The notes below the pieces were generated by a model, which saw nothing but the letters and a program-made list of their open reading frames with translations, was not told the DNA's origin and did not search any database. A DNA stretch of 64,000 nucleotides from Futiania mangrovi (GTDB taxonomy: Bacteria; Pseudomonadota; Alphaproteobacteria; Futianiales; Futianiaceae). Location: assembly GCF_024158125.1 (NCBI RefSeq), contig NZ_JAMZFT010000002.1, forward strand, positions 496,001 through 560,000. The letters run 5' to 3'. Shown one piece after another: positions 29,959 to 31,206 of the stretch (its first letter is position 1; each line of letters opens with the position of its first letter). The translations under genes were made by a program, and so were the position numbers.

Positions 29959-30513
29959 ATGACGGGTATCGAGACCGGTTTCGGCGCGGCGCCGCTCGGC
30001 GCGACAGAACCGGAGGCGGCGGAGTTCGCAAGCCTGATGCCGGCGGAAGCGACGCTGGTGGCGGGCGTGGGCGAGGACGACGATTTCCGCGCCTGCCGCG
30101 ATCTGATCGGCCATGCGCGGCGCGACTATGGCCAGGCGCAGGAGAACATGCGGCTTGCGCTCCAGTACAAGGACATGGGTCAGGACCGCGTGGCGCAGAG
30201 CTATGCCGACAAGGCATACGCCAAGCTGCAGGAACTCTTGTGGACGCTGGAGGAACTGCTCGGCAACTGCGTGAAGATCGGCGCCTTGTCGGACGCAGAG
30301 ATCCGGGAGATGCAGGACATCAAGGCGCGTGTCGACGGTCTGCTCCGCCGCTTCGAGTCGGATCAGCCGACGCTGGGCGAGCGGGCGGGCGCCTTCCTGC
30401 AGGACGCGGGCGAGGTGATGGGCCAGATCGGCCAGGGGCTTGCGTGGGCGGCTGGCGCAGTTCTGGGCGGTCTCGGCTGGCTGCTCGGCGGCGGGCGCCA
30501 GGGCGCGTTCTGA
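29959..30513 (+). CDS. Unknown protein A of a tandem paralog pair with glycine-rich tail
   Basis: A 184-aa protein that I do not recognise. In order: a Gly/Ala/Glu N-terminus with AEFASLM near residues 21-27; DDDFRACR with Cys46; a helical, heptad-like core to about residue 133, with a second Cys at 104; and a tail from 142 to 184 (starting RAGAFLQDAGEVMGQIGQG) with a glycine-rich hydrophobic helix and ending GGGRQGAF. Protein B downstream shares the Cys spacing (58) and 35 of 43 tail residues. There is no N-terminal signal peptide, so the tail could be a membrane anchor, an assembly zipper or a C-terminal export signal. Start ATG 29959, with GGAG 9 nt upstream. Confidence 0.8.
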   Translation: MTGIETGFGAAPLGATEPEAAEFASLMPAEATLVAGVGEDDDFRACRDLIGHARRDYGQAQENMRLALQYKDMGQDRVAQSYADKAYAKLQELLWTLEELLGNCVKIGALSDAEIREMQDIKARVDGLLRRFESDQPTLGERAGAFLQDAGEVMGQIGQGLAWAAGAVLGGLGWLLGGGRQGAF

Positions 30514-30606
30514 TCGCCTGTTCCCGGTGGGATTTCACCTTCGTGTTTCCCGGCGCGGCCGACCGGCCCCTCGGTTCCGCCGCGATATATTCGAGGAGTA
30601 GCCCGA

Positions 30607-31206
30607 ATGACACAGATCGACTTGCCGCCCGTGGCCCCCGGCGCGTTCGGCGGCGCGCCGGCAGACGCCGACGCGTTCGCAACGCTGATGACCGCACCCG
30701 GCACGCAACCAGCAAGCGCCTCGGCCATGGTGGTCGCCGTCAGCACCGACGACGAACGCGCCTTCCGCGCGTGCCGCGCCATGGCTGCGGACGTCTACAC
30801 CTTCTACAATCGCTTCATGCGCAACCTGAGCCAGGCCGATGCCCTGGACCGGGCAGGCAACAAGGTTGAGAAATCCGCCTATGTTCAGGCGGCCTATCAG
30901 GATCTGAAGCAGCTGCAGTTCACGATCGACGCGGTGCTGGCGGTGTGCAGCGACGCCTTGTCCGAGGAGGAACTCGAAGGCTTGCGGGAGTTGAAGGAGC
31001 AGGTGGACGACCTCAAGGGGCAGATCGACAATCTCTACAAGCCCGATGGAACCGAGCGGCCGGGCGCCGGTGCGCGGGCGGGGGCTTTCCTTCGGGACGC
31101 CGGAGAGGTTATGGGCCAGATCGGCCAGGGCCTCGGCTGGGTGCTGAGCGGCGTTCTCGGCGCCCTCGGCTGGGCGCTCGGCGGTGGGCGGCAGGGTGCG
31201 TTCTGA
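30607..31206 (+). CDS. Unknown protein B of the tandem paralog pair
   Basis: A 199-aa paralog of the preceding protein. It has AFATLM near residues 23-28, ERAFRACR with Cys56, a helical and partly coiled-coil core (EELEGLRELKEQVDDLKGQI, about 121-140) with Cys114, and the tail from 157 to 199 ending GGGRQGAF. The core is only weakly similar to protein A, whereas the tail is about 80 % identical, so the tail is under stronger constraint. A clear AGGAG stands 7 nt before ATG 30607; 93 bp separate the two genes, with no terminator seen, so they are probably one transcript. Convergent with thpR. Function unknown. Confidence 0.82.
   Translation: MTQIDLPPVAPGAFGGAPADADAFATLMTAPGTQPASASAMVVAVSTDDERAFRACRAMAADVYTFYNRFMRNLSQADALDRAGNKVEKSAYVQAAYQDLKQLQFTIDAVLAVCSDALSEEELEGLRELKEQVDDLKGQIDNLYKPDGTERPGAGARAGAFLRDAGEVMGQIGQGLGWVLSGVLGALGWALGGGRQGAF

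Follow-up and report, generated by a model that had tools for sequence, protein, structure and literature searches.

In CTERM signals, a glycine-rich hydrophobic stretch is followed by an arginine. Precedents for membrane-active antagonism proteins with glycine-rich hydrophobic C-termini are also known (PMC5380434; PMC10434224). CdzC and CdzD of Caulobacter crescentus, proteins of 84-86 amino acids, share their locus with the genes of a type I exporter and of a membrane immunity protein (PMC5380434), and TelE belongs to the LXG/WXG100 proteins of the type VII system (PMC10434224). The organism investigated here, Futiania mangrovii FT118T, is the first cultured member of the Futianiales (UBA8317); it has a G+C content of 68.5% and carries genes for polyhydroxybutyrate synthesis and depolymerisation, phbABC and phaZ (PMC9927469). 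The window, i.e., the whole stretch of 64,000 nucleotides that was analysed, lies within a contig of 1,219,768 bp (C2) of the 3.39 Mb genome. It contains two genes, A and B (cluster 1), which belong to a family of eight paralogs; the other six, c1 to c6, stand in tandem on contig C3 (cluster 2). The family is undescribed and apparently lineage-restricted, so far found only in F. mangrovii.

A preliminary description had presented A and B as a tandem pair. Their adjacency, coordinates and lengths were confirmed (Table 1), but the framing as a pair was too narrow for what are really eight members at two loci. A profile search with A and B brought up a third homolog on C3, and reading that region gave the six tandem paralogs. 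A profile of all eight members retrieved just these eight from the genome, with E-values from 8e-53 to 4e-67, and no ninth paralog at E up to 5; as the members match such a profile by construction, the informative point is the missing ninth. Independently of that profile, BLAST joined both loci, as in the match of A to c6 (E 6e-5). The proteins range from 175 to 214 amino acids, with a total of 1,521 residues, and all eight reading frames are intact. The GC content at the three codon positions (A 0.75/0.46/0.86, B 0.71/0.48/0.84) matched what real genes show, with a regional GC of 69% around both genes. The other details of the preliminary description also held on recounting: the identity of the A and B tails at 35 of 43 positions with the shared GGGRQGAF end, an FRACR motif followed by a second cysteine exactly 58 residues later, an F-A-x-L-M motif near the N-terminus of both proteins, and the lack of a signal peptide, the first 12 residues containing no K or R and the best N-terminal 12-mer reaching a hydropathy of only about 1.4. 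Between A and B, there was one weak hairpin-plus-T match (30526-30539), which did not exceed chance expectation.

Table 1. Features of the two loci. Coordinates of A and B refer to the window, residue numbers to the respective protein.
Feature	Position	Strand	Description
Gene A, 184 aa	29959-30513	+	N-terminus, core with Cys pair, C-terminal tail ending GGGRQGAF
Gene A N-terminus	residues 1-45		probably disordered, as in the models of B and c4
Gene A invariant Cys pair	C46/C104		in the core
A tail module	30382-30510	+	last 43 residues: amphipathic start RAGAFLQDAGEVMGQIGQ, Gly/Trp-rich hydrophobic LAWAAGAVLGGLGWLLGG, GRQGAF
A-B intergenic gap, 93 bp	30514-30606	+	GAGGAG ribosome-binding-like site 5' of B
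Gene B, 199 aa	30607-31206	+	architecture like A; tail end GGGRQGAF
Gene B Cys pair	C56/C114		core of three helices at 47-143, high prediction confidence
B tail module	31075-31203	+	final 43 residues, 35 of them as in A; 12 synonymous codon differences
Cluster 2, six paralogs	G000:C3:298971-302834 = L007:8972-12835		all on the same strand
c1	L007:8972-9499		
c2	L007:9521-10165		
c3	L007:10402-10959		start uncertain
c4	L007:10984-11559		
c5	L007:11641-12210		
c6	L007:12281-12835		

In a tree of the whole proteins, A with B and c1 with c2 grouped firmly and c4 with c5 more weakly; c3 and c6 found no settled place there and are reciprocal best BLAST matches. A tree of the cores had long branches and was not relied on. 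By their C-terminal ends the members fall into three classes, RQGAF (A, B, c3, c6), RRPGAV (c4, c5) and WQN (c1, c2), and a DNA pattern that encodes the RQGAF end and requires glycine at the second codon ahead of the arginine occurred only at A, B, c3 and c6. The c2 protein contains a Gly/Asn-rich N-terminal insertion of about 36 residues (within FPWFGRRGPDYQRNNGGGNGNDGVGGPGNPG), which its sister c1 lacks.

Searches for relatives supported the earlier statement that no known family has this architecture. All eight members were compared with Pfam, NCBIfam, PHROGs and PADLOC, where the best E-value was 0.02 or weaker and far off the cut-offs, and the PDB gave no family match either. Profile searches of 384 further genomes from the class and 398 from the phylum, two overlapping samples of species outside the Futianiales, yielded no real relative. 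The same holds for two pattern scans each of 84,980 species genomes and of viral contigs, which recognise short peptides only when nearly exact and would overlook more distant relatives, including those in other Futianiales, as well as for phages with B as query and plasmids with c4 as query. Of the weak profile matches elsewhere, those within a recognisable gene were to helical proteins such as chemoreceptors, a histidine kinase, GrpE, MscL and methionine aminopeptidase; the family architecture was seen in none of the hits read, of which a few on the minus strand gave no resolved frame. Sequence hits in the PDB were mostly designed or coiled-coil bundles. No structural match fell below E 0.001, the best fold match of B being the lipid-droplet protein TIP47 with an insignificant E of 0.58.

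The preliminary description had further regarded the tail as a functional module and the cores as only weakly alike. For the comparison of the nearest pairs, segments were cut at the cysteines and the tail boundary was placed 38 residues from the third-column cysteine. Identity of A and B was 81% in the tail and 24% in the core (uncorrected Fisher p 4e-10); as this boundary was chosen to reproduce the previously described 43-residue tail of A, the figure for A/B is biased and is no independent test. The other pairs offer a fairer one and point in the same direction with modest support: 56% versus 38% for c4/c5 (p 0.05), 49% versus 26% for c3/c6 (p 0.01) and 50% versus 33% for c1/c2 (p 0.1, not significant), all p-values being uncorrected and derived from Fisher tests that assume independent residues. 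With the tail exceeding the core in all four pairs, the notion of a module under its own constraint was upheld. In A/B (53%, p 0.002) and c1/c2 (64%, p 0.001), though not in c3/c6 and c4/c5, the N-terminus too surpassed the core in identity. For the tails of A and B, a dN of 0.12 and a dS of 0.68 were obtained (dN/dS about 0.17), and 12 of the 35 identical codons differed synonymously. The likeness of the tails is thus kept by protein constraint, and a recent duplication or gene conversion behind it is unlikely. In the core of one pair, c3/c6, dN reaches dS.

Other proposals of the preliminary description fared less well. Membrane insertion stays a hypothesis, as do export and a heteromer of A with B: the mean hydropathy over 19 residues is about 1.35 for the tails of A and B, a marginal value for a membrane span, and 1.8-2.0 for those of c3 and c6. 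An oligomer zipper is not favoured, since GxxxG spacings were no commoner than in shuffled tails (p 0.1-0.9).

Across all eight members only Met1 and two cysteines, those singled out in the preliminary description, are invariant. A second cysteine pair is present in all six members of cluster 2, and both of its residues are absent together from A and B. The family has 28 cysteines, every one of them in one of four alignment columns, while about 14 others would be expected elsewhere from the local frequency; the naive P of about 7e-7 for this restriction ignores the relatedness of the paralogs and is therefore indicative only. Recurring short motifs were found in the N-terminus of most members, D-F-[AS] followed by [LVI]-[VI]-A. 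AlphaFold models of B and c4, built on the eight sequences only, predicted a bundle of three helices with good confidence, preceded by a disordered N-terminus and followed by a tail of low confidence. The helices comprise residues 47-82, 86-113 and 120-143 in B, with pLDDT values of about 86-93 in blocks of ten residues, and 41-75, 78-106 and 115-144 in c4 (about 87-97). Estimated from these helix boundaries, the paired cysteines are predicted to occupy opposing positions on the two arms of helix hairpins: the residue numbers of the first pair add up to 170 in B (56+114) for a hairpin register of 168 and to 154 in c4 (48+106) for 153, those of the second pair in c4 to 224 (99+125) for 221. Such a register fits disulfides between adjacent helices. 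Conserved cysteines in even number can also have cytoplasmic metal or redox roles.

The genes enclosing cluster 1 run on the opposite strand and encode a Sir2 deacylase and a LigT-type phosphoesterase; an aldo/keto reductase is also among its neighbours. Cluster 2 has an S49 peptidase gene on one side and a methyltransferase gene on the other. These two genes are no more than 600 bp apart in 16 of 21 other alphaproteobacterial families, and in Futiania about 4.1 kb holding the six paralogs lie between them, which identifies cluster 2, the locus to which this comparison applied, as an insertion into a conserved neighbourhood. Beside neither cluster was a transporter, an immunity-like gene or a regulator found, and upstream of the genes no sigma-54 site or common motif clearly exceeded chance.

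With a probability of roughly 0.4, we propose that the proteins are leaderless, disulfide-clamped bundles which are exported without a Sec signal and attached to the membrane by their tails. Each would consist of three parts: a disordered, motif-bearing N-terminus, a variable bundle with one or two cysteine pairs, and the conserved Gly/Trp-rich tail, amphipathic at first and then hydrophobic. Both ends may serve for addressing and docking, recognised by a common partner or membrane, and the diverged core would be the specific working part; tails conserved next to variable cores suggest shared handling and individual functions. The conserved amphipathic-hydrophobic character of the tail points to attachment to a membrane or lipid surface. 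The cysteines, paired and otherwise absent, point to disulfides and thereby to a bundle that probably works outside the cytoplasm after Sec-independent export. Anatomy, number of paralogs and the patterns of conservation and of cysteines are observed here, while disulfides, export and membrane attachment are inferred. Several observations count against the proposal: no secretion signal is recognisable, the sole clear type I system found in the genome serves its adjacent RTX protein, neither cluster has a transporter beside it, the tails of A and B are only marginally hydrophobic, and the tail is of low confidence in both models. A bolder version, in which the tail with its group-specific ends (RQGAF, RRPGAV, WQN) is a new signal for leaderless export or surface attachment and the family forms four cognate surface pairs of disulfide-clamped bundles with diversifying cores, appears improbable to us. 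If the tail were an address signal, it would stand for a non-Sec route or a mode of attachment so far undescribed, and the eight paralogs would be a natural set for testing which residues are important. Even with an ordinary role, this is an undescribed family expanded in one cultured order-level lineage and unannotated by the libraries searched, and thus a tractable case of the origin and diversification of orphan families.

A serious rival, and the main one, is a role inside the cytoplasm, which we consider unlikely on balance. The proteins would form a surface coat, their tails binding lipid or a polyhydroxybutyrate granule in a phasin-like manner and the cysteine pair being structural, redox-active or metal-related. 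Several features are in line with this idea: the polyhydroxybutyrate genes of the host (PMC9927469), the acidic helical bundles without signal peptide, the amphipathic starts of the tails and, for what an insignificant match is worth, TIP47 as best fold match of B. However, a search of all eight members with the E limit at 10 gave no Pfam phasin match, the polyhydroxybutyrate genes adjoin neither cluster, and the absence of cysteines outside the paired positions points to an oxidising compartment.

For two further explanations we see only a slim chance. The proteins might be glycine-rich, membrane-active antagonism proteins working in cognate pairs, A with B and so forth, comparable to CdzC/CdzD or to the tail of TelE. 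The paired genes, whose leaderless products have matching glycine-rich hydrophobic C-termini and diversified cores, speak for this reading, and the precedents cited above use such tails. Yet the Cdz proteins are of 84-86 amino acids and encoded with their own type I exporter (PMC5380434), and a Cdz-like bacteriocin was rejected because exporter and immunity gene are absent at both loci and the glycine zipper does not rise above shuffled tails, the frequency of GxxxG being what composition predicts. A T6SS effector was likewise rejected, as a search for the sheath gene VipB (PF05943), positive in a control genome, gave no match in Futiania. Alternatively, the family might consist of rapidly evolving orphan genes of weak function that are conserved by common ancestry only. 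Its occurrence in one genome and the core of c3/c6 fit this explanation, which is opposed by the dN/dS of the A/B tails, by cysteines that stay invariant across eight diverged members and by the intact reading frames. Very improbable is a tail acting as C-terminal sorting signal for a sorting enzyme, for instance either of the two exosortases: the genome has these enzymes together with a PrsK/PrsR/PrsT set, and the tail does show a glycine-rich hydrophobic stretch followed by arginine, but a search with CTERM models, run to E 10, left all eight members without a match, the PEP motif and the Sec signal peptide needed by such substrates are missing, and no upstream sigma-54 site stood clearly above chance.

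Two other candidates were dismissed. Encapsulin (PF04454) was not found in the genome while control genomes matched, so that a role as encapsulin cargo is not supported. A type I (RTX) substrate was rejected as no RTX model matched the members and the C-terminus of the resident RTX protein is different (SLILL). This RTX-type protein has 1,486 amino acids and no cysteine, and is encoded beside a PrtD-type type I exporter and PrsK/PrsR/PrsT (L064, G000:C1:1203000-1221000). The two exosortase genes are located at G000:C1:1198214-1198963 (L065) and G000:C4:111819-112559 (L066).

Arrays of orphan paralogs with conserved ends are already known as a kind, and it is this particular family that is without a match in our searches. 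From phasins it is set apart by its conserved cysteines, its conserved C-terminal peptide and the missing Pfam phasin match, while it resembles them as a set of small helical proteins without signal peptide in a host that makes polyhydroxybutyrate. PEP-CTERM/exosortase substrates possess a PEP motif, a signal peptide and a CTERM model match, none of which was found here; the hydrophobic, glycine-rich C-terminal stretch followed by arginine and the exosortases in the Futiania genome are the points of likeness. CdzC and CdzD differ from the family, whose members are of 175-214 amino acids with a cysteine-clamped helical core, lack an exporter or immunity gene alongside and show no excess of GxxxG. 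Common to both are two adjacent alphaproteobacterial proteins without Sec signal and with glycine-rich hydrophobic segments. From LXG/WXG100-type effectors such as TelE the family differs by a core with cysteine pairs instead of a W-x-G motif, and no member matched a WXG100/LXG domain of Pfam at E up to 10; like TelE, the proteins combine a leaderless helical bundle with a glycine-rich C-terminal segment, which in TelE is membrane-active (PMC10434224).
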